Positions 8,355-19,586 of a stretch of DNA of 64,000 nt are shown in pieces (position 1 is the first letter of the stretch; the number at the start of each line of letters is the position of its first letter). The stretch covers positions 620,001 through 684,000 of the forward strand of contig NC_020453.1 of assembly GCF_000344805.1 (NCBI RefSeq). Reading direction: 5' to 3'. The notes below the pieces were generated by a model that was given only the letters and a program-made list of their open reading frames with translations, made no database searches and had not been told where the DNA came from. The translations under genes were made by a program, and so were the position numbers. The stretch comes from Bradyrhizobium oligotrophicum S58. Its GTDB lineage: Bacteria > Pseudomonadota > Alphaproteobacteria > Rhizobiales > Xanthobacteraceae.

Positions 8355-9278
8355 TCAACTCTCCCGCCGCGTCACGCCGGTCGCGATCGCCGCGGCCGCG
8401 GTGCGGTTTTCGACGCCGAGCTTGGCGTAGACCTGCTCCAGGTGCTTGTCGACCGTGCGCGGGCTCAGCCCCAGGATCTGCGCGATGTCGCGATTGGTCT
8501 TGCCCTTCGACAGCCAGGATAGCACCTCGCCTTCGCGCACGGTGAGGCCGAACTCGCTGGAAAATTCCTTGGGCAATTCGCCCGACGTTTCCTTGGCCAG
8601 CCGCAGCAGGAACTCGTTCGGCCCGGCGCTTCCCATGTAGTACAGGCGCAGCTCGGGATGATCCGGGATCGCGGCGGCAGTCTTCGCGCCGCCCTTGCCG
8701 ATCTGAACCTGATCGAGCCATTGCCGCAGCGCTTCCGGCAGGATCAGCTCCTCGCTCGTGCCGAGGCTGTCGGACAACAGCTTCTGCGCCTGCGGCGTCG
8801 CCCACATCAGCCGTCCCTCGCGGTTGACCGCGAGCAGGAAACGGCCGGAGACGTCGAGCGCGGCGCGCGCGCTCTGTGTCATCCTGGCGTTGGCGAGATG
8901 CACGCGAATCCGCGCCAGCATCTCCTCGACCGCGATCGGCTTGGTGACATAGTCGACGCCGCCGGCGTCGAGCCCTTGCACGATGTGCTCGGTGTCGGCG
9001 AGCCCGGTCATGAAGATGACGGGGACGTTGGAGAGCCCTGCCTCGCGCTTGAGCTTGCGGCAGGTCTCGAAGCCGTTCATGCCCGGCATGACGGCATCGA
9101 GCAGGATGATGTCGGGTGTGATCTGGTCGACGATGCGCATCGCGGCCGCGCCGTCGAGCGCGACCATCACGGTCATGCCTGCGCCGTCCAGCGCGTCGGT
9201 CAGCAGCCGGAGCGTCTCCGGCGAGTCGTCGACCACGAGCGCGACGTCACGCTTCTTGCTGTCAGTGCTCATAAGCAT
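8355..9278 (-). CDS. Response regulator with PAS-like centre and LuxR-type HTH
   Basis: 307 residues. The N-terminal receiver (about 10-130) has the acidic pair VVDDSP, phosphoacceptor Asp61 in ILLDAVMPGMNG, a Thr switch in FMTGLAD and Lys in VTKPI. The middle part (LLAVNREGRLMWATPQAQKLL) looks like a degenerate PAS domain. The C-terminus LTVREGEVLSWLSKGKTNRD followed by IAQILGLSPRTVDKHLEQVY is a LuxR/NarL-type DNA-binding helix-turn-helix. Its ATG overlaps the last codons of the permease-kinase gene by 17 nt (or 11 nt if ATG 9272 is used), so the two are translationally coupled and almost certainly cognate. It is a likely regulator of the urt/formamidase genes. Confidence 0.93.
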   Translation of the reverse strand: MLMSTDSKKRDVALVVDDSPETLRLLTDALDGAGMTVMVALDGAAAMRIVDQITPDIILLDAVMPGMNGFETCRKLKREAGLSNVPVIFMTGLADTEHIVQGLDAGGVDYVTKPIAVEEMLARIRVHLANARMTQSARAALDVSGRFLLAVNREGRLMWATPQAQKLLSDSLGTSEELILPEALRQWLDQVQIGKGGAKTAAAIPDHPELRLYYMGSAGPNEFLLRLAKETSGELPKEFSSEFGLTVREGEVLSWLSKGKTNRDIAQILGLSPRTVDKHLEQVYAKLGVENRTAAAAIATGVTRRES

Positions 9279-12200
9279 GCAGTGTCTTCAGAGTGGCCAT
9301 GTACTGATCGAGGTCGAAGCGATCGATCAGCGTGCGCATCTGGGCGACGAAATCGGCATGTTCCGGGTGCGCGCTGCCGATCTCGTCGAGCTTGAGCTGA
9401 ATGGCCCTGATGTAACCGATCTGGCCGAGGCCCATCAGCTCTTCGACATACTTCAAAGGCGGCCGCGATCCGGTGTCAGGGCGCCAGTGCGGCTCCACCA
9501 TTGGTTGATCGGTCTGATAGCTCCATTCGAGTTTGAGCAATTGACGTATCGCCTCCAGCAGCCGCGGAATGTCGATCGGCTTCATCAGATAACTGTCATG
9601 GAACGGCTGCGCCAGCGGTCTTCCATGCGCTTCGAGCGCGCTCGCCGACGTCATCAGGATGCGCGCGTGATGATGGCCGCTGCCGCGCAAGGTCTCGGCC
9701 ACCGTCCAGCCATCCATGCCCGGCATCGAGATGTCGAGAATGAAGAGATCCGGCTGACAATGTTGTGCGAGCGCGAGGCAGGCGGGACCGTCGGGCGCGC
9801 TCAGCAAAATGAAGCCGAGCGGCGTCAGCACCTCGCGCAGCAGGTCGCGATGCACCGGATCGTCGTCGGTAATGAGGATCGTCTTGCGCGGGCCGAGATA
9901 GCCCGCCACCGGCGCCTTCACCGGCGCGTGCCGCGTCGGGTTGGTCACTTCAGAGAGCAGGATCTTCACCTTGAACGTGCTGCCGGTGCCGACCTTGCTC
10001 TCGACCTTGATATCGCCGCCCATCACCCCGGCGAGCAGGCGGCTGATCGTCAAGCCCAGTCCCGTGCCGGTCTGCGGCTGCGCGGCGCCGAGCGCACCGC
10101 GCTCGAACGGCGCGAAGATCCGCTCGAGGTCGTCGGGCTGGATGCCGGGACCCGTGTCGATCACTTCGAACTCAGCCACCGGGCTGCGGTAGTGCACGAC
10201 GAACCGGACGCTCCCTTCCTGGGTGAATTTGATCGCATTCGACAGCAGATTGATCAGGATCTGGCGCAGCCGCTTCTCGTCGGCATAGACGACGAGCGGC
10301 AGCACGGCGGGCCGCTTGAACACGAAGTCGACGCCCTTCGCGGCCGCCTGCAGCCGGAACATGCCGACGAGCTGGTCGAGGAATTCGCTCAGCCGCACCT
10401 CGTCGCGCGACAGATACAACCTTCCCGCCTCGATCTTGGAGATGTCGAGAATGCCGTCGATCAGGCCCGACAGATGGTCGGCGCTGCGGCGCACGACGCG
10501 GACCTGGTCGCGGGGCTTCGGCGGCAGGCTCGTGTCCTGCTCGAGCAACTGGGCATAGCCGGAGATCGCGTTCAGCGGCGAGCGCAGCTCGTGGCTCAGG
10601 CCGACCACGTAGCGGCTCTTGGCGAGATTGGCCGACTCCGCGACTTCCTTGGCGCGCTGCAATTCGGCATCGGTGCGCTTGTGGGCCTCGATCTCCTGGA
10701 TGAGAAGGTGGGTCTGGCGCCGCGTCTCGGCCTCGGCGGCGCGGCGGCTCTGCTGGGCCAGCACGAACAGCCAGGTCACGACGCCGATGATGATGGAGAG
10801 CGCGAAGAACACCTTCCATAGCACATCGGAGATGATCCCCTTGAAGCCCGGCAGCGCTGCCGACGTCTCCAGATAGATCATCCCGAGCGTCAGCGCGACC
10901 AGCCCGGCTGATGTCAGGAACACGCCGACGTAATGCCCGAACTGCGAGTTGATCTTCGCCAGCACGGATTGCGGCAGCATGCCGCTGAGCGCCGCCGAGA
11001 CCTGGGCCTGTGCCCGCGCATGCGGCTTGCACAGATCGTGGCAGCGCGCATCGAGCGAGCAGCACAGCGAGCAGATCGGGCCGGAATAAGCGGGGCAGGC
11101 AGCGGTGTCCTCGGGCTCGAAATGGTGCTCACAGATGCAGCACTGGATCTGCTCGATGTTCTGCCAGCTCCGCTTCGGCTTACGCGCCAGATAGTATTTG
11201 CCGCCGGTGAGATAGGCGATCGCCGGCGCGGTGACGAGCGCGACGCCCAACGCGACGAAGGTCGAGAGCGCCTTGCCGGTCGGTCCGAACAGGCCATAGA
11301 AGGCGCTAATCGAGACGATCGTGGCGATCGTCATGGCGCCGACGCCAACCGGGTTGATGTCGTAGAGATGGGCGCGCTTGAACTCCATCTGCGGCGGCCG
11401 CAATCCGAGCGGCTTGTTGATCACGAGGTCGGCGACCAGAGCGCCGACCCAGGAGATCGCGATGTTGGAGTACAGCGCCAGCGTCTGCTCCAGCGCCTTG
11501 TAGACGCCGATCTCCATCAAGAGCAGCGCGACGACGACGTTGAACACCAGCCAGACCACGCGGCCGGGATGGCTGTGCGTCAGGCGCGAGAAGAAGTTCG
11601 ACCAGGCGATCGAGCCGGCATAGGCATTGGTGACATTGATCTTGATCTGAGACACGATCACGAAGGTGCCGGTCAGCGCGAGTGCCAGGTCCGGCCGGGC
11701 CAGTACATAGCGGAACGCCTCCAGATACATGTGTGCCGGTTCGGCGGCGTGGTCGGCCGAGACGCCGTGGCTGAGCGCGAAGAAGGCGAGGAACGAGCCG
11801 GCCAGCAGCTTCAGTGCGCCGAGCACGATCCAGCCGGGGCCGGCCGACAGCAGCGCGATCCACCACGACCGTTTCGACGTGCGCCGGTCGCGCGGCAGGA
11901 AGCGAAGGAAATCGACCTGCTCGCCGATCTGGGCCACCAGCGAGAACACCACGGCGGCAGCCGTGCCGAACAGCGCCAGATCGAGATGGCCCATGGGATC
12001 GCCATGCTCGCCGGGAAATTGCTGCCATTCCGCGAACGAGTGCGGGCTCGCATAGGCGATCGCCGCAAAGGGGAGGATGTGCAGCACCACCCAGAGCGGC
12101 TGCGTCCACAGCTGGAAGCGGCTGATCAGCGTGATGCCGTAGGTGACGAGCGGGATGATGACGACGGCGCTGATGAGGTAGCCGATCGGCCTGGGAATGC

Positions 12201-12636
12201 CGAAGCACATCTCCAGCGCGGACGCCAGGATGACGGCCTCGATCGCGAAGAAGATGAAGGTGAAGGACGCGTAGATCAGCGACGTCACGGTCGAGCCGAT
12301 ATAGCCAAAGCCCGCGCCACGCGTCAGCAGATCGATGTCGATGCCGCATTTGGCCGCGTGATAGGCGATCGGCAGGCCACAGCAGAAGATGATGACGCTG
12401 GCGACCAGGATCGCCGCGGTCGCGTTGGTCACGCCGTAGTTCAGCGTGATGGTGCCGCCGATCGCCTCCAGGGCCAGGAACGAGATCGCGCCCAGGGCCG
12501 TGTTGGCGACGCGGGCGGCCGACCAGCGCCGGGCGCTCTTGGCCGTGAAACGGAGTGCGTAGTCCTCCAACGTCTGGTTGGCGACCCACTGGTTGTATTG
12601 GCGCCTGACGCGGTCGATCCGCTGCCGCCCTGCCAC
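9262..12636 (-). CDS. NCS1 permease fused to hybrid histidine kinase/receiver (transporter-like sensor)
   Basis: 1124 residues from GTG 12636, chosen because AAGGAG lies 8 nt upstream. Residues about 20-490 form a complete multi-pass cytosine/purine/allantoin-type (NCS1) permease. A cysteine-rich segment at 499-539 (nine Cys plus several His, beginning CCICEHH) looks metal-binding. Two more membrane helices follow, then a coiled linker, HisKA with His682 in SHELRSPLNAISGY, an ATPase domain ending TGTGLGLTISRL, and a receiver with Asp968 in FILDISMPGMDGW. The last 100 residues are unassigned. It probably senses a substrate related to urea, amides or purine breakdown through the permease part and phosphorylates the coupled LuxR regulator. 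CbrA-type kinases use an SSS symporter in an analogous way. Whether it also transports is unknown. Confidence 0.92.
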   Translation of the reverse strand: MAGRQRIDRVRRQYNQWVANQTLEDYALRFTAKSARRWSAARVANTALGAISFLALEAIGGTITLNYGVTNATAAILVASVIIFCCGLPIAYHAAKCGIDIDLLTRGAGFGYIGSTVTSLIYASFTFIFFAIEAVILASALEMCFGIPRPIGYLISAVVIIPLVTYGITLISRFQLWTQPLWVVLHILPFAAIAYASPHSFAEWQQFPGEHGDPMGHLDLALFGTAAAVVFSLVAQIGEQVDFLRFLPRDRRTSKRSWWIALLSAGPGWIVLGALKLLAGSFLAFFALSHGVSADHAAEPAHMYLEAFRYVLARPDLALALTGTFVIVSQIKINVTNAYAGSIAWSNFFSRLTHSHPGRVVWLVFNVVVALLLMEIGVYKALEQTLALYSNIAISWVGALVADLVINKPLGLRPPQMEFKRAHLYDINPVGVGAMTIATIVSISAFYGLFGPTGKALSTFVALGVALVTAPAIAYLTGGKYYLARKPKRSWQNIEQIQCCICEHHFEPEDTAACPAYSGPICSLCCSLDARCHDLCKPHARAQAQVSAALSGMLPQSVLAKINSQFGHYVGVFLTSAGLVALTLGMIYLETSAALPGFKGIISDVLWKVFFALSIIIGVVTWLFVLAQQSRRAAEAETRRQTHLLIQEIEAHKRTDAELQRAKEVAESANLAKSRYVVGLSHELRSPLNAISGYAQLLEQDTSLPPKPRDQVRVVRRSADHLSGLIDGILDISKIEAGRLYLSRDEVRLSEFLDQLVGMFRLQAAAKGVDFVFKRPAVLPLVVYADEKRLRQILINLLSNAIKFTQEGSVRFVVHYRSPVAEFEVIDTGPGIQPDDLERIFAPFERGALGAAQPQTGTGLGLTISRLLAGVMGGDIKVESKVGTGSTFKVKILLSEVTNPTRHAPVKAPVAGYLGPRKTILITDDDPVHRDLLREVLTPLGFILLSAPDGPACLALAQHCQPDLFILDISMPGMDGWTVAETLRGSGHHHARILMTSASALEAHGRPLAQPFHDSYLMKPIDIPRLLEAIRQLLKLEWSYQTDQPMVEPHWRPDTGSRPPLKYVEELMGLGQIGYIRAIQLKLDEIGSAHPEHADFVAQMRTLIDRFDLDQYMATLKTLHAYEH

Positions 12637-12724
12637 TCTTCGACTCCTTACGCGCAGCGGTTCATCCGCACGCCTTGTCCTGCCCCTCGCGAGACCTGCG
12701 TAGAGCCTACGTCGCGCTTTTGCG

Positions 12725-12762
12725 GTGCAGTATACGCAATCTTGCGTATCCGTGCGCTGCAC
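12725..12762. promoter_or_regulatory. Operator-like dyad between sensor kinase and urtA genes
   Basis: A perfect inverted repeat ATACGCAA-TC-TTGCGTAT lies at 12732-12749, flanked by a second inverted pair GTGCAG (12725-12730) and CTGCAC (12757-12762). It is about 75 bp upstream of urtA and 83 bp upstream of the kinase start, the ideal place for a site shared by both divergent promoters. The symmetry and size fit a LuxR/NarL-family dimer, so the neighbouring response regulator is the natural candidate. Binding is inferred. Confidence 0.65.
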
Positions 12763-12822
12763 AAAGCGCGCCATCCTTCGTCCGAGCCAAAGCGTGTCCT
12801 CGAACCAATGAATGGGGTGCTC

Positions 12823-14085
12823 ATGTCAGACGAAACCAAAAAAGGCCTGAAGTCGCCGCTTCGGCGGCAATTGCTGATGGGAATGGCCGCCATTCCGGCG
12901 CTCGCGATGATGCCGAGGCCGTCCTTTGGCGCCGGTCCTGCAACCTCTGCTGTCAATACGACCGGACTTGCAGTCACCGATAGCGAAGTGACGGTCGGCA
13001 TTCTGCATTCGGTCACCGGCACGATGGCGATCTCGGAGACCGGCTCGGTGCAGGCCGAGAAGCTCGCGATCGAGCAGATCAACGCCTCCGGCGGCGTGCT
13101 CGGCCGCAAGATCAAATACATCCAGGAAGACGGCGCCTCCGACTGGCCGACCTTCGCCGAAAAGGCCAAGAAGCTCCTGGTCAACGACAAATGCGCCGCC
13201 GTGATGGGCTGCTGGACCTCGGCCTCGCGCAAGGCCGTGCTGCCGGTGTTCGAACAGTACAACGGCATGCTCTATTATCCGACCTTCTACGAAGGCCTCG
13301 AGCAGTCCAAGAACGTCATCTATACCGGCCAGGAAGCCACGCAGCAGATCATCGCCGGCCTCGACTGGGTCAACAAGACCAAGGGCGCGAAGACCTTCTA
13401 CCTGCTCGGCTCCGACTACATCTGGCCGCGCACCTCGAACAAGATCGCGCGCAAGCACATCGAGGGCCATCTCCAGGGCGCCAAGGTCGTCGGCGAAGAG
13501 TACTTCCCGCTCGGCCACACCCAGTTCAACTCGGTGATCAACAAGATCAAGCTCACCAAGCCCGACGTGATCTACGCCATCATCGTCGGCGGCTCCAACG
13601 TCGCCTTCTACAAGCAGCTCAAGGCGGCCGGCATCGACATGTCGAAGCAGACGCTGCTGACCATCTCCGTCACCGAGGACGAGATCGACGGCATCGGCGG
13701 TGAGAACATCGCGGGCGCGTACGCCTGCATGAAGTACTTCCAGTCGCTCGACAACGCCAACAACAAGGCCTTCGTCGCCGACTTCAAGAAGATGTGGGGC
13801 GAGAAGACCGTGATCGGTGACGTCACGCAGGCTGCCTATCTCGGCCCGTGGCTGTGGAAGTTGACGGTCGAGAAGGCCGGCAGCTTCGACATCGACAAGA
13901 TCGCGGCGGCCTCGCCCGGCATCGAGTTCAAGGGCGCGCCGGAGGGCTATGTGCGGATCCACGAGAACCACCACCTCTGGTCCAAGACCCGCGTCGGCCG
14001 CGCCAAGGCTGACGGTCAGTACGAGCTGATCTACGAGACCGCCGATCTGGTCGAGCCCGATCCGTTCCCGAAGGGCTATCAGTAA
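12823..14085 (+). CDS. urtA: Urea/short-chain amide ABC transporter substrate-binding protein
   Basis: 420 residues from ATG 12823 (GGGG at the ribosome-site position; another ATG at 12808 is in frame). The N-terminus carries a twin-arginine-type signal, SPLRRQLLMGMAAIPALAMM. The mature protein is a type I periplasmic binding protein of the UrtA/FmdD class (VGILHSVTGTMAISE, EDGASDWPTFAEKA, YYPTFYEGLEQSKNVIYTGQ). It captures urea or small amides in the periplasm for UrtBCDE. The gene begins an operon that ends with formamidase and FmdB, so formamide or a related amide may be the true ligand; sequence alone does not separate these from urea. Confidence 0.92.
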   Translation: MSDETKKGLKSPLRRQLLMGMAAIPALAMMPRPSFGAGPATSAVNTTGLAVTDSEVTVGILHSVTGTMAISETGSVQAEKLAIEQINASGGVLGRKIKYIQEDGASDWPTFAEKAKKLLVNDKCAAVMGCWTSASRKAVLPVFEQYNGMLYYPTFYEGLEQSKNVIYTGQEATQQIIAGLDWVNKTKGAKTFYLLGSDYIWPRTSNKIARKHIEGHLQGAKVVGEEYFPLGHTQFNSVINKIKLTKPDVIYAIIVGGSNVAFYKQLKAAGIDMSKQTLLTISVTEDEIDGIGGENIAGAYACMKYFQSLDNANNKAFVADFKKMWGEKTVIGDVTQAAYLGPWLWKLTVEKAGSFDIDKIAAASPGIEFKGAPEGYVRIHENHHLWSKTRVGRAKADGQYELIYETADLVEPDPFPKGYQ

Positions 14086-14313: not shown

Positions 14314-15240
14314 ATGTTCGGTGACTATTCCATCGGCGACCTCGGGGCCATCTTCGCGATGCAGGGCTTCGCGGGCCTCATCCTGTTTTCGGTCTACGTG
14401 CTGATGGCGCTGGGGCTTGCCATCATCTTCGGCCAGATGGGCGTCATCAACATGGCGCATGGCGAGTTCATGATCCTCGGCGCCTACGTCACCTGGATGA
14501 CCTCGAACGCCTTCCAGCATTTTCTCCCCGCTCTGTTCCCCGGCTACTTCTTTGTCGCCATGGCGCTTGCCTTCATCGCCTCCGGCTCGCTCGGGATGCT
14601 GGTCGAATGGGCCATGATACGCCGGCTGTACAAGCGGCCTCTCGACACGCTGCTCGCCACCTGGGGACTCAGCCTGATCCTGCAGCAGGCCTATCGCTCG
14701 GTGTTCGGCGCGCGCGAGGTCGGCGTCGAGCTGCCGGACTGGATGATGGGCTCCTGGCAGGTGACCGACGCCATCCAGATCCCGATCAACGGCATGTTCG
14801 TGATGTGCCTGACCATCCTGATCACGATCGTGGTTGCCTATGTCCTCTTCCTGTCGCGCTGGGGCAAGCAGGTCCGCGCCGTCGTGCAGAACCGCGTGAT
14901 GGCCGGTGCCGTTGGCATTAATACCGAGAAGGTCGACCGCTACACGTTCGGTCTCGGCTGCGGTATCGCCGGCGTCGCCGGCTCCGCTTTCACCATGATC
15001 GGCTCGACTGGTCCGACCGCCGGCCAGCTCTACATCGTCGACACCTTCCTGGTCGTTGTGTTTGGCGGCGCGGCCAGCCTGCTCGGCACCATCGCTTCGG
15101 CCTTCACCATCTCCCAGGCGCAGTCGACCATGGAGTTCTTCCTGTCCGGCTCGATGGCCAAGGTGCTCACGCTGCTTGCGATCGTCGCGATCCTGATGCT
15201 GCGCCCCCAGGGACTGTTTGCCCTCAAGGTCCGCAAGTGA
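14314..15240 (+). CDS. urtB: Urea/amide ABC transporter permease UrtB
   Basis: 308 residues, an integral membrane protein of the LivH/UrtB class with about eight hydrophobic segments. IIFGQMGVINMAHGEFMILG is the hallmark of branched-chain amino acid and urea permeases, and FGGAASLLGTIASAF near the C-terminus is the coupling region. GAGAGGACGG precedes the ATG. It pairs with UrtC in the inner membrane and receives substrate from UrtA. A stable hairpin repeat separates it from urtA. Confidence 0.94.
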   Translation: MFGDYSIGDLGAIFAMQGFAGLILFSVYVLMALGLAIIFGQMGVINMAHGEFMILGAYVTWMTSNAFQHFLPALFPGYFFVAMALAFIASGSLGMLVEWAMIRRLYKRPLDTLLATWGLSLILQQAYRSVFGAREVGVELPDWMMGSWQVTDAIQIPINGMFVMCLTILITIVVAYVLFLSRWGKQVRAVVQNRVMAGAVGINTEKVDRYTFGLGCGIAGVAGSAFTMIGSTGPTAGQLYIVDTFLVVVFGGAASLLGTIASAFTISQAQSTMEFFLSGSMAKVLTLLAIVAILMLRPQGLFALKVRK

Positions 15241-15268
15241 GCCAGCTCCGATAGTCAAACAAGAAAGC

Positions 15269-16411
15269 ATGGCCATGATCAACTCGCGCTTCTTCAACCG
15301 ATCGGAGCTCATCGGCTTCGTCTCCTTGCTGCTCTTGCTGGTCGTCATCCTGCCGCTGGCGCTCGACATCTTCCGCCTCAACCTGGTCGCGAAGTATCTG
15401 ACGTACTCCTTTGTCGCCATCGGCTTGGTGCTGTGCTGGGGTTATGGCGGCATTCTCAGCCTCGGGCAGGGCGTGTTCTTCGGCCTCGGCGGCTACTGCA
15501 TGGCGATGTTCCTGAAGCTGGAAGCCTCCAGCGTTGCGAATACCAAGATCCAGTCGACGCCGGGCATTCCCGACTTCATGGATTGGAATCAGCTGACCCA
15601 GCTGCCCTTCTTCTGGAAGCCGTTCCAGAGCTTCCCGTTTGCGCTCGCCGCGATCATCCTGGTGCCCGCGGTCTTCGCCTTCATCATCGGCGCCGCGATG
15701 TTCAAGCGCCGCGTCGGCGGCGTCTATTTCGCCATCATCACCCAGGCGATCGCGGCGATCATGACCATCCTGATCGTCGGTCAGCAGGGCTACACCGGCG
15801 GCATCAACGGCATCACCGACCTGCGCACTTTGCACGGCTGGGACATCCGCACCGATCACGCCAAGTACATCCTCTATTTCGTCGAGGTGCTCTTCCTGTT
15901 CGCTGCGATCCTGGTGGCGCAGTTCATTCGCCTGACCAAGCTCGGCCGCATCCTGGTGGCGATGCGTGAGCAGGAGGACCGGGTGCGTTTCTCGGGCTAC
16001 AGCGTCGCCAACTTCAAGATCTTCGCCTTCTGCGCAGCCGCGGTCTTCGCAGCTGTCGGCGGCGCGCTGTTCACGCTCGAGGTTGGCTTCATGTCGCCGT
16101 CCTTCGTCGGCATCGTGCCGTCGATCGAAATGGTGATCTACACCGCGGTCGGCGGCCGGCTCTCCATTTTCGGCGCGGTCTACGGCACGATCCTCGTCAA
16201 CTTCGCCAAGACCAGCCTGTCGGAGACGTTCCCACAGCTCTGGCTGTTCGGCCTGGGGGCGCTGTTCATCGCCGTCGTGCTCGCCTTCCCGAACGGCCTT
16301 GCCGGCATCTGGGGCGACTATGTGCAGCCGCGCATCGATCGGCTGCTGGCCTCGCGTACCAAGAAACCGAGCAATGGCGGCCTGGTCGCCGACGGCGCCC
16401 CCGCAGAGTGA
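15269..16411 (+). CDS. urtC: Urea/amide ABC transporter permease UrtC
   Basis: 380 residues of LivM/UrtC type. CWGYGGILSLGQGVFFGLGG is the family signature, an external loop follows (QSTPGIPDFMDWNQLT), and AVGGRLSIFGAVYGTILVNF is the coupling-helix region. ATG 15269 gives MAMINSRF; ATG 15275 is an equally placed alternative. The gap to urtB is 28 bp. The C-terminal tail is hydrophilic. Confidence 0.94.
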   Translation: MAMINSRFFNRSELIGFVSLLLLLVVILPLALDIFRLNLVAKYLTYSFVAIGLVLCWGYGGILSLGQGVFFGLGGYCMAMFLKLEASSVANTKIQSTPGIPDFMDWNQLTQLPFFWKPFQSFPFALAAIILVPAVFAFIIGAAMFKRRVGGVYFAIITQAIAAIMTILIVGQQGYTGGINGITDLRTLHGWDIRTDHAKYILYFVEVLFLFAAILVAQFIRLTKLGRILVAMREQEDRVRFSGYSVANFKIFAFCAAAVFAAVGGALFTLEVGFMSPSFVGIVPSIEMVIYTAVGGRLSIFGAVYGTILVNFAKTSLSETFPQLWLFGLGALFIAVVLAFPNGLAGIWGDYVQPRIDRLLASRTKKPSNGGLVADGAPAE

Positions 16412-16421
16412 GGACACAGCG

Positions 16422-17177
<756 letters not shown>

Positions 17178-17192
17178 GCAGGAGCAGAATCG

Positions 17193-17882
17193 ATGTTGGC
17201 AATCTCCGATCTCCATGTCGCCTATGGCCAGAGCGAGGTGCTGCATGGCCTCAACGTCAAGGTCGCGCCCAACGAGATCGTTGCGATCATGGGGCGCAAC
17301 GGCATGGGCAAGACCACGCTGATGAAGTCGCTGATGGGCATCCTGCCGTCAAAGAGCGGCTCCATCGATATGAACGGCACCGAGTTGTCGGGCCTGAAGA
17401 GCTACGAGCGTGTCGCCAAGGGCCTCGCCTATGTCCCGCAGGGCCGCATGATCTTCTCGACCATGACGGTCAAGGAGAACATCGAGACCGGCCTCGTCGT
17501 CTCCGGCGAGTCCGAGGTGCCCGGCGACATCTATGAGCTGTTCCCGGTGCTGCTGGAGATGAAGGGCCGCCGCGGCGGCAACCTCTCTGGCGGCCAGCAG
17601 CAGCAGCTCGCGATCGCGCGCGCGCTTGCGACCAAGCCGAAGGTGCTGCTGCTCGACGAGCCGACCGAGGGCATTCAGCCCTCGATCATCAAGGACATGG
17701 CGCGCACGCTGAAGCGCATCCGCGACGAGAAGGGGCTGTCGATCGTCGTCTCCGAGCAGGTGCTGAGCTTTGCGCTCGACATCGCCGACCGCGTGCTGGT
17801 GATCGAGAACGGCGAGATCGTCCGCGACGATCCGCGCGATCAGGTCGATGCGGCGCAGGTGTCCAAATATCTGTCGGTCTAA
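17193..17882 (+). CDS. urtE: Urea/amide ABC transporter ATP-binding protein UrtE
   Basis: 229 residues, an LivF/UrtE-type ABC ATPase with Walker A GRNGMGKTT, signature LSGGQQQQLAIARAL and Walker B LLLDEPTEGIQPS. The start is 15 bp after urtD with AGGAG upstream. It completes the five-gene importer and is followed after 36 bp by formamidase, so uptake and hydrolysis are co-expressed. Confidence 0.95.
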   Translation: MLAISDLHVAYGQSEVLHGLNVKVAPNEIVAIMGRNGMGKTTLMKSLMGILPSKSGSIDMNGTELSGLKSYERVAKGLAYVPQGRMIFSTMTVKENIETGLVVSGESEVPGDIYELFPVLLEMKGRRGGNLSGGQQQQLAIARALATKPKVLLLDEPTEGIQPSIIKDMARTLKRIRDEKGLSIVVSEQVLSFALDIADRVLVIENGEIVRDDPRDQVDAAQVSKYLSV

Positions 17883-17918: not shown

Positions 17919-19148
17919 ATGCCTGACACACTGATCAAGGTCGATCTCACGAAATCGGCCTACGAGAACGACAAGGTGCACAACCGCTGGCACCCGGACA
18001 TTCCGATGGTGGAGTGGGTCAATCCCGGCGATGATTTCATCATCGAGACCTATGATTGGACCGGCGGCTTCATCAAGAACAACGACTCCGCCGACGATGT
18101 GCGCGACATCGATCTGTCGATCGTGCACTTCCTGTCCGGCCCGATCGGCGTCAAGGGCGCGGAGCCCGGCGACCTGCTGGTGGTCGACCTGCTCGACGTC
18201 GGTCCGCTCAAGGAGAGCCTGTGGGGCTTCAACGGCTTCTTCTCCAAGCAGAATGGCGGCGGCTTCCTGACCGACCATTTCCCGCTGGCGCAGAAGTCGA
18301 TCTGGGACATCAAGGGCCTCTACACCTCGTCGCGTCACGTTCCCGGCGTCAACTTCGCAGGCCTGATCCATCCCGGCCTGATCGGCTGTCTGCCGGATCC
18401 GAAGCTGCTCGCGACCTGGAACGAGCGCGAGACGGCGCTGATCGCGACCAACCCGACCCGCGTGCCGGGTCTCGCCAATCCGCCGTTCGCGCCGACCGCG
18501 CATGCCGGCCAGGCCAAGGGCGACGTCAAGGCCAAGATCGGCGCCGAGGGCGCCCGCACCGTGCCGCCGCGCGAGCATGGCGGCAATTGCGACATCAAGG
18601 ACCTGTCGCGCGGCTCGAAGATCTACTTCCCGGTCTACGTGCCCGGCGGCGGCCTCTCGATGGGCGATCTGCACTTCAGCCAGGGCGACGGCGAGATCAC
18701 CTTCTGCGGCGCCATCGAGATGGCCGGCTGGCTGCACATCAAGGTCGACATCATCAAGGACGGCGTGGCCAAATACGGCATCAAGAACCCGATCTTCAAG
18801 CCGTCGCCGATCACGCCGAACTATCGCGACTACCTGATCTTCGAGGGCATCTCGGTCGACGAGGCCGGCAAGCAGCATTATCTCGACGTCCACATCGCCT
18901 ATCGCCAGGCCTGCCTCAACGCCATCGAGTATCTGAAGAAGTTCGGCTACTCCGGCGCCCAGGCCTATTCGATCCTCGGCACCGCGCCGGTGCAGGGCCA
19001 CATCTCCGGCGTGGTCGACGTGCCCAATGCCTGCGCCACCTTGTGGCTGCCGACCGAGATCTTCGACTTCGACGTGATGCCGTCGTCGGCAGGCCCGATC
19101 AAGCACATCACGGGCGACATCCAGATGCCGATCTCGCCGGACAAATAA
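17919..19148 (+). CDS. fmdA: Formamidase (acetamidase/formamidase family)
   Basis: 409 residues, the expected length for FmdA. Recognisable family blocks are HNRWHPDIPMVEWVNPGDDF, the SGPIGVKGAEPGDLLVVDLL metal-site region, PREHGGNCDIKDLSRGSKIY, GGGLSMGDLHFSQGDGEI and CGAIEMAG. It hydrolyses formamide, and sometimes acetamide, to ammonia and the acid in the cytoplasm, providing nitrogen. It directly follows the urtABCDE genes and precedes an FmdB protein, an arrangement like the fmd cluster of Methylophilus. Confidence 0.95.
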   Translation: MPDTLIKVDLTKSAYENDKVHNRWHPDIPMVEWVNPGDDFIIETYDWTGGFIKNNDSADDVRDIDLSIVHFLSGPIGVKGAEPGDLLVVDLLDVGPLKESLWGFNGFFSKQNGGGFLTDHFPLAQKSIWDIKGLYTSSRHVPGVNFAGLIHPGLIGCLPDPKLLATWNERETALIATNPTRVPGLANPPFAPTAHAGQAKGDVKAKIGAEGARTVPPREHGGNCDIKDLSRGSKIYFPVYVPGGGLSMGDLHFSQGDGEITFCGAIEMAGWLHIKVDIIKDGVAKYGIKNPIFKPSPITPNYRDYLIFEGISVDEAGKQHYLDVHIAYRQACLNAIEYLKKFGYSGAQAYSILGTAPVQGHISGVVDVPNACATLWLPTEIFDFDVMPSSAGPIKHITGDIQMPISPDK

Positions 19149-19244: not shown

Positions 19245-19586
19245 ATGCCGGTCTATGAATATCTCTGTGATGCTTGCGGTCCGTTCACTGACTTCAGGCC
19301 GATGGCCGAATGTGATGATCCGCAGGTCTGTCCGCAATGCGCTGAGATGGCGCCGCGGGTGATCCTCACCGCGCCCGCCTTCGCCTGCATGCCGGCGGAG
19401 CGGCGCACGGCGCACGCCACCAACGAGCGCAGCCGCCACGCGCCGCAGACGGTGGCCGAGTACAAGGCCAAGCATGCTGCGGGCTGCGGCTGCTGCTCGC
19501 CGAAGAAATCGCCGCGGCTGATGACCAAGAGTAAGAGCGGCGCCAAGGGCTTTCCGACGGCGCGACCGTGGATGATCAGCCACTGA
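19245..19586 (+). CDS. FmdB-family zinc-ribbon protein
   Basis: 113 residues from ATG 19245 with CAGGAGAC upstream. The N-terminal zinc ribbon MPVYEYLCDACG has Cys8/Cys11 and Cys29/Cys32 (CPQC), and a further cysteine cluster GCGCCSPKK lies near the C-terminus. FmdB-type proteins accompany formamidase and amidase genes and have been proposed as regulators, but their molecular role is not established. Co-direction with fmdA, 96 bp after its stop, supports the same transcription unit. Confidence 0.88.
   Translation: MPVYEYLCDACGPFTDFRPMAECDDPQVCPQCAEMAPRVILTAPAFACMPAERRTAHATNERSRHAPQTVAEYKAKHAAGCGCCSPKKSPRLMTKSKSGAKGFPTARPWMISH

Follow-up and report, generated by a model that had tools for sequence, protein, structure and literature searches.

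A hybrid sensor kinase with an NCS1-like permease domain beside urea and amide uptake genes in Bradyrhizobium and other Pseudomonadota

The kinase locus

The DNA analysed here, called the window, is a stretch of 64,000 nucleotides from Bradyrhizobium oligotrophicum S58. It contains a gene for a hybrid sensor kinase that overlaps the gene for a response regulator and faces, across a divergent intergenic region, genes for amide or urea uptake and a formamidase. The genes are:

8355-9278, minus strand: LuxR/NarL-type response regulator of 307 aa, with Response_reg and GerE matches in Pfam
9262-12636, minus strand: hybrid sensor kinase of 1124 aa with a GTG start, comprising permease, Cys module, two-helix hairpin, HisKA, HATPase_c, and receiver
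12637-12822: divergent intergenic region from the kinase to urtA
12823-14085, plus strand: urtA-type periplasmic binding protein (amide/urea)
14314-17882, plus strand: urtB, urtC, urtD, and urtE, in the same order in annotated relatives
17919-19148, plus strand: fmdA, formamidase, named from annotated orthologues
19245-19586, plus strand: fmdB-type zinc-ribbon protein, with relatives annotated as zinc ribbon protein

The kinase gene is a single minus-strand frame that runs from a GTG at 12636 to 9262 and contains 1124 codons and a stop. An earlier reading made from the sequence alone had described one 1124-codon gene spanning 9262..12636 without giving the strand, and this description is borne out. 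An alternative in-frame ATG further up, at 12774, would give a protein of 1170 aa. We consider the GTG to be the better start despite this longer frame because the nearest full-length homologues among the matches listed in a database search are approximately 1120-1127 aa long. One of the homologues listed, labelled B. aeschynomenes, is 99% identical to the window kinase. Two plus-strand frames lie antisense to the kinase at 8983-10821 (612 codons) and 10933-14085 (1050 codons), the second of which runs into urtA; both are in all likelihood artefacts that arise from GC-rich codon usage.

Pfam placed HisKA, HATPase_c, and Response_reg above the cut-off in the kinase, in line with the kinase and receiver domains recognised in the sequence-only reading. 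In the first 700 residues no Pfam family passed the cut-off, and Pfam gave no PAS match in the window kinase.

Matches to the N-terminal half of the kinase came from 27 of 385 genomes sampled in the class, including one fragment and one weak stand-alone permease, and from 59 of 398 sampled Pseudomonadota genomes. The matches in the phylum comprised 52 of the kinase type at E below 1e-170 and seven that were weak, fragmentary, or stand-alone. Our family set holds 89 distinct proteins, the window's included, with identical proteins collapsed beforehand and with L059-L064 and L076, which are permease-less or stand-alone, excluded; only 12 of the 80 named loci are among the 89. The analysis of gene context was made without the kinase matches of genomes G479, G715, and G583 and the fragments of G326 and G595.

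The phosphoacceptor H682 is invariant in all 89 family proteins, and the receiver aspartate D968 is kept in 87, the other two having no receiver. The regulator gene starts at 9278 and so overlaps the kinase stop by 17 bases, and a response regulator match comes next after the kinase in the family loci except L065 and L066. With a phosphoacceptor His and Asp and a co-encoded, overlapping regulator gene, the pair has the features of a hybrid kinase with a LuxR-type regulator, a coupling that had been proposed from the sequence. L065 (885 aa) and L066 (879 aa) are shorter members near fmdA that contain no receiver and have no adjoining response regulator match, and represent a simpler version of the system.

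The permease domain and the cysteine module

The kinase protein is made up of the following parts:

11182-12636, minus strand: NCS1-like permease domain, residues 1-485, with 12 helices as read from the AlphaFold model
11029-11142, minus strand: Cys module, residues 499-536, present in 89/89 homologues, with secondary structure from AlphaFold
10645-10944, minus strand: presumed membrane hairpin and signalling helix, residues 565-664, from the AlphaFold model and alignment
9262-10620, minus strand: HisKA (H682), HATPase_c, receiver (D968), and C-terminal tail, from residue 673, from Pfam and conservation

The AlphaFold model used was built from an alignment of 106 diverse sequences and has a pLDDT of 83.9; an earlier model from 13 close sequences (pLDDT 56) was set aside. 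Structure comparison put CodB and Mhp1 at the top of the fold list among the matches listed, with a gap before the next family. The match spans model residues ~22-510, and the whole domain has the LeuT fold in its NCS1 version. CodB and Mhp1 share this fold with the kinase permease at ~16% identity, contain no kinase part, and were solved as transporters, with titles that name cytosine (CodB) and a hydantoin-bound form (Mhp1). Homology to recognised NCS1 proteins was also found at the level of sequence. The kinase permease matched L060, a protein that passes PF02133, in BLASTP at 2e-34, and hhalign against 27 stand-alone permeases (L060 relatives, a PF02133-positive family) gave a probability of 100 and an E of 1.9e-43. 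None of 52 family members matched PF02133, the Pfam NCS1 model, at E up to 10, and we therefore call the domain NCS1-like rather than a member of the Pfam family. PDB profile searches with the permease returned no match. The whole NCS1-type permease of the sequence-only reading thus stands as to fold and profile but not as to the Pfam model.

Seven polar residues, E133, Q175, D242, Q330, N334, N337, and D403, are invariant in 89/89 proteins and remain so when the 27 stand-alone permeases are added to the alignment. G398, A55, G61, and F129 differ between amide- and urea-linked members, a listing that carries no weight. The best non-kinase match in the search of 398 genomes of the phylum was the stand-alone NCS1 permease at L060:7949-12984. 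Its gene clusters with those for a double carbon-nitrogen hydrolase of the amidase type, a UrtA-like binding protein, and an AmiR/ANTAR regulator, making it a candidate amide or nitrile transporter.

The permease is followed by a 41-residue segment (499-539) in which the sequence-only reading had counted nine cysteines and several histidines. The count is confirmed, with cysteines at 499, 500, 502, 514, 522, 525, 526, 532, and 536 and four histidines at 504, 505, 533, and 539. That reading was to fall if the segment proved not to be conserved in homologues; eight of the cysteines (C499, C502, C514, C522, C525, C526, C532, and C536) are invariant in 89/89 distinct family proteins, with the spacing C-x2-C-x11-C-x7-C-x2-CC-x5-C-x3-C. 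D510, I521, S523, L524, L528, and D534 are likewise invariant. C500 is variable (33/89) and the histidines are poorly kept (H504 in 50/89, H505 in 8/89, H533 in 55/89, and H539 in 34/89). AlphaFold places strands at 511-514 and 519-522 and a helix at 523-528, with mean pLDDT of 79-86 per ten-residue block across 491-540.

A domain search of this segment, which the sequence-only reading had proposed, returned weak matches that are mostly zinc-finger-like. Matches to Pfam were weak only (Cript in 2/52 members at 0.079; in 1/52 each, FYVE at 0.31, Prok-RING_1 at 0.58, zf-RING_10 at 0.29, and DUF983 at 1.2), those of the segment to PDB were short and weak and nearly all to zinc-finger proteins, and a profile of the Cys module with the two helices matched solved structures at E 2.5 or worse. 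No known zinc-module family was matched in Pfam or PDB. The module does contain the eight paired Cys/His ligands of a RING/FYVE-type cross-brace, the pairing being read from spacing and secondary structure. Because of the NCS1 topology, which presumably puts the module on the cytoplasmic side, and from the model, we infer a cytoplasmic two-zinc cross-brace that leads through a membrane hairpin into the kinase. The hairpin would be formed by two long helices (565-594 and 596-664), which presumably span the membrane and continue into the kinase. Of the two extra membrane helices described earlier from the sequence, the helices themselves are seen in the model and their crossing of the membrane is presumed.

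A search of the 398 Pseudomonadota genomes with the module and the two helices gave 59 matches in 54 genomes, 57 of which are joined to a permease; the other two are a short fragment and the permease-less relative L059. Scoring covered at most nine candidates in each genome, and further contexts of the module may therefore have escaped notice. Of the Cys module, L059 (L059:8857-10713) retains just the final part, together with both helices, the kinase, and the receiver; its neighbours are a convergent LuxR-type regulator gene and a gene resembling iron-type alcohol dehydrogenase. L067-L070 have inserts of variable length between the permease and the Cys module.

Gene neighbourhood and the intergenic palindrome

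In the window urtA starts at 12823 on the strand opposite to the kinase, and the divergence from a urt-fmdA operon that had been noted from the sequence holds as a linkage across the family. Among the 89 members, 55 have urt and fmdA, 17 have a more distant urea-type urtA, and three are on contigs that end inside an fmd-type urt operon; the remainder have urtDE only (three), fmdA only (two), or none of these (nine). By a count newly made here, in which only these genes and amidase were scored, 85/89 members are near formamidase, urea/amide-ABC-transporter, or urease genes. Annotated relatives additionally carry an aliphatic amidase, and the B. japonicum urt cluster, which lies beside formamidase and amidase in the same gene set, has already been thought to encode an amide rather than a urea carrier (PMC3098086).

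Urease is a further neighbour. Of the 27 genomes with members outside the urt and fmdA class, 25 contain urease alpha, and in 18, as a raw count, it lies no more than 20 kb from the kinase. It adjoins the kinase and is divergent from it in six loci of family f193. Five of the nine members with none of the urt or fmd genes are urease-linked, and L067-L071 are urease-linked members. No linked amide or urea gene was found at four family loci (L172, L173, L176, and L177), and L180 and L181 have urea-type urt with no urease in the genome.

The region between the kinase and urtA contains a palindrome flanked by two PhaR-like boxes:

12721-12729: PhaR-like box TGCGGTGCA, 5' of the palindrome (published site CTGCNNNGCAG)
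12733-12748: palindrome TACGCAATCTTGCGTA, to which the cognate regulator is predicted to bind as its operator
12753-12761: PhaR-like box TGCGCTGCA, 4 bases 3' of the palindrome, counted as TGCNNNGCA

In 62 of the 89 loci urtA is divergent from the kinase within 900 bases, and TACG-N8-CGTA occurs in 50 of these 62 gaps compared with 1.2% of mononucleotide shuffles, a new observation. Taking up to 700 bases upstream of the anchor in the mature UrtA domain, the palindrome precedes 56 of 75 urtA loci (45/55 fmd, 8/17 urea, and 3/3 contig-end loci) against a background expectation of 0.008; a narrower upstream interval gave 54/75, and related loci in these counts are not independent. The other 19 of the 75 have no exact palindrome upstream of urtA.

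In many loci the palindrome travels with the target genes. Where urtA is more than 1 kb from the kinase (13 urea-type loci), six keep the palindrome 190-203 bases before the urtA anchor (L001, L073, L199, L201, L207, and L211) and seven have none at urtA (L168, L169, L175, L180, L181, L182, and L217). Four loci have fmdA apart from urt; in three of them (L191, L194, and L198) the palindrome precedes fmdA by 88-115 bases, and the fourth, L192, has no copy before fmdA. A one-base variant, TGCGTCAAATGACGTA, precedes urtA in L191, L192, L194, and L195.

The strict form TACGYNANNTNRCGTA occurs at one place in the window's own genome of 8,264,165 bases, the gap between the kinase and urtA, compared with six places for the reversed control. 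Seventeen of 26 other kinase genomes have a match and nine have none; of 19 places in all, 14 are at the kinase locus or its urtA and five are elsewhere. Five places were found in 19 kinase-free genomes. The strict pattern is not enriched genome-wide by number, and because the pattern is often outnumbered by its reversed control, the signal is one of location and not of frequency.

The flanking boxes resemble the PhaR site of R. sphaeroides, CTGCNNNGCAG (PMC12542648). Within 30 bases 3' of the palindrome TGCNNNGCA occurs in 27/50 loci, in 24 of them at exactly 4 bases, compared with 0.5% of shuffles; within 30 bases on the 5' side it occurs in 19/50. L001 is a family member from S. meliloti, 55% identical to the window kinase, and we identify it with SMb20609 because the PhaR site listed for SMb20609 is 95 bases away from the L001 start on pSymB. 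In EMSA the SMb20609 promoter is bound by PhaR, and SMb20609 protein rises without phaR; the paper calls this protein functionally uncharacterised (PMC12542648). In the literature as available to us this is the only experimental result found for a family member, and two B. diazoefficiens PhaR papers, by the terms searched, contained no mention of the kinase locus. PhaR may also act at the Bradyrhizobium locus, where the two boxes flanking the palindrome hint that PHB or carbon status could repress either the sensor for urea and amides or its target.

L159, L183, and other Bradyrhizobium loci carry a -24/-12-like sequence, for example TTGGTACGGAATTTGC, approximately 50 bases upstream of the kinase. 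Such sequences were seen in 66 of 168 intergenics, a set that includes some places more than once, and none was seen in the window's intergenic region. They suggest that RpoN may control the sensor operon in the loci that have them.

Proposed mechanism and relation to known systems

We think it likely that this protein is a transporter-like kinase for urea and short amides that drives the urt-fmd operon via its regulator and the palindrome. Comparison of genomes points to urea or simple amides such as formamide as its signal, and to activation of the adjacent genes for their uptake and breakdown as its effect. In this scheme the NCS1-like domain would bind periplasmic urea or a short amide of the formamide/acetamide class, and the change of the permease between outward and inward shapes would pass through the cytoplasmic eight-Cys, probably two-zinc, module. 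The two-helix membrane hairpin would then relay the signal to a dimeric kinase, which by way of H682 and its own receiver D968 would control how far the co-encoded LuxR-type regulator is phosphorylated. The regulator would bind the palindrome at 12733-12748 and activate the divergent urtABCDE-fmdA-fmdB operon, with a PhaR-type repressor probably overlaying carbon/PHB status. A broader proposal, which we regard as possible rather than probable, is that NCS1-fold transceptor kinases are widespread in Pseudomonadota, that a private two-zinc cross-brace couples a urea/short-amide transport cycle to the kinase, and that a dedicated operator moves with the urea/amide genes.

Purine-ring products, hydantoins, and allantoin are classical NCS1 substrates, and the permease might read one of these while the operon responds indirectly. 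The NCS1 fold and the titles of the closest solved structures, a cytosine transporter and a hydantoin-bound transporter, speak for such a ligand, and the location of 85/89 members near formamidase, urea/amide transport, or urease genes speaks against it; we consider it very unlikely. Because only amide and urea genes were scored, the neighbourhood is evidence for amides and not a test against purines. The sequence-only reading had named a purine-ring or an amide product: the scored neighbours (formamidase, amidase, urea/amide transporter, and urease, these alone being scored) make the amide type the likeliest and lend the purine ring no support. The divergent linkage with urtA in many loci could also mean that the sensor responds to UrtA in its loaded state, or to ABC transporter flux, instead of binding the amide itself. 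This is distinctly unlikely in view of the five urease-linked members, L067-L071, that have no urt match within the 18 kb fetched.

The Cys module might supply a second input, as a sensor of redox state or metal, instead of serving as a structural hinge; the sequence-only reading had inferred such an input. Eight invariant cysteines that include an adjacent CC pair would suit this role, and redox-sensing kinases occur in the literature as far as available. However, the pairs C499xxC502 and C522xxC525, set around a hairpin that leads into a helix, agree with what we take to be the zinc treble-clef pattern, the histidines are not conserved, and the module presumably lies on the cytoplasmic, reducing side; a second input of this kind is unlikely, and a structural zinc module is the likelier of the two. 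The palindrome, for its part, might serve another regulator while the kinase pair acts elsewhere, given that its binding by the cognate regulator is a prediction and that FmdB has been called a positive regulator of formamidase (PMC13209695). We find this quite improbable, as the palindrome lies upstream of urea-type urtA in L001, L199, L201, L206, L207, and L211, where the fetched region has no fmdB match, and its off-locus rarity (five places in the 26 kinase genomes and five in the 19 kinase-free genomes) argues against a global site.

If the kinase is a urea/short-amide sensor acting through its own regulator and palindrome, transporter-like sensing would extend from the SSS and Amt folds to NCS1, and the urea/amide uptake operons of many bacteria would gain a sensor and an operator. 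Permease, Cys hinge, kinase, and a single operator would then form a system in which to dissect how a transport cycle is coupled to a kinase.

In Sinorhizobium meliloti, SMb20609/SMb20610 are linked to urea-type urt and not to fmdA, unlike the window pair, and further neighbours of that locus are, from Pfam, what we take to be dct genes. In Methylophilus, fmdCABDEF encodes formamidase and a binding-protein-dependent amide/urea transporter, and is induced by formamide and urea and repressed by ammonia; the text available mentions a putative positive regulator but not a transporter-like kinase (PMC10781810). GrtK of Burkholderia glumae was considered as a relative and rejected, being, in the source as available, a PilS-like six-helix sensor. 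Among the matches listed in a search of the open-access literature, with subscription journals mostly outside its scope, we found no NCS1-type sensor kinase; in PMC8399564 'NCS1' occurs solely in a thesis title in the reference list.

The nearest parallels are kinases that use a transporter fold as sensor. Ks-Amt5 is a fusion of an ammonium transporter and a histidine kinase (PMC5764959; also PMC12918730) and likewise senses a nitrogen compound, with an Amt fold in place of the NCS1 fold of the window kinase. CbrA, CrbS (MxtR), and RpuS are SLC5-STAC kinases with a LeuT-type permease N-terminal to HisKA/HATPase, MxtR/CrbS having a receiver as well, and in PrlS/PrlR the partner of an SSS hybrid kinase is a LuxR-family regulator (PMC7918813). 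The palindrome used in the CrbS/R regulon is an imperfect one (PMC5715377). The STAC of CbrA is a four-helix bundle under the membrane (PMC13022988), whereas the window linker, as modelled, has the eight-Cys module and a long two-helix hairpin, and the permease of the SLC5-STAC kinases is of the SSS (SLC5) type whereas that of the window kinase is NCS1-like. The common plan is a permease joined to a HisKA/HATPase output, and the window kinase would work like CbrA/CrbS but without an SSS domain.
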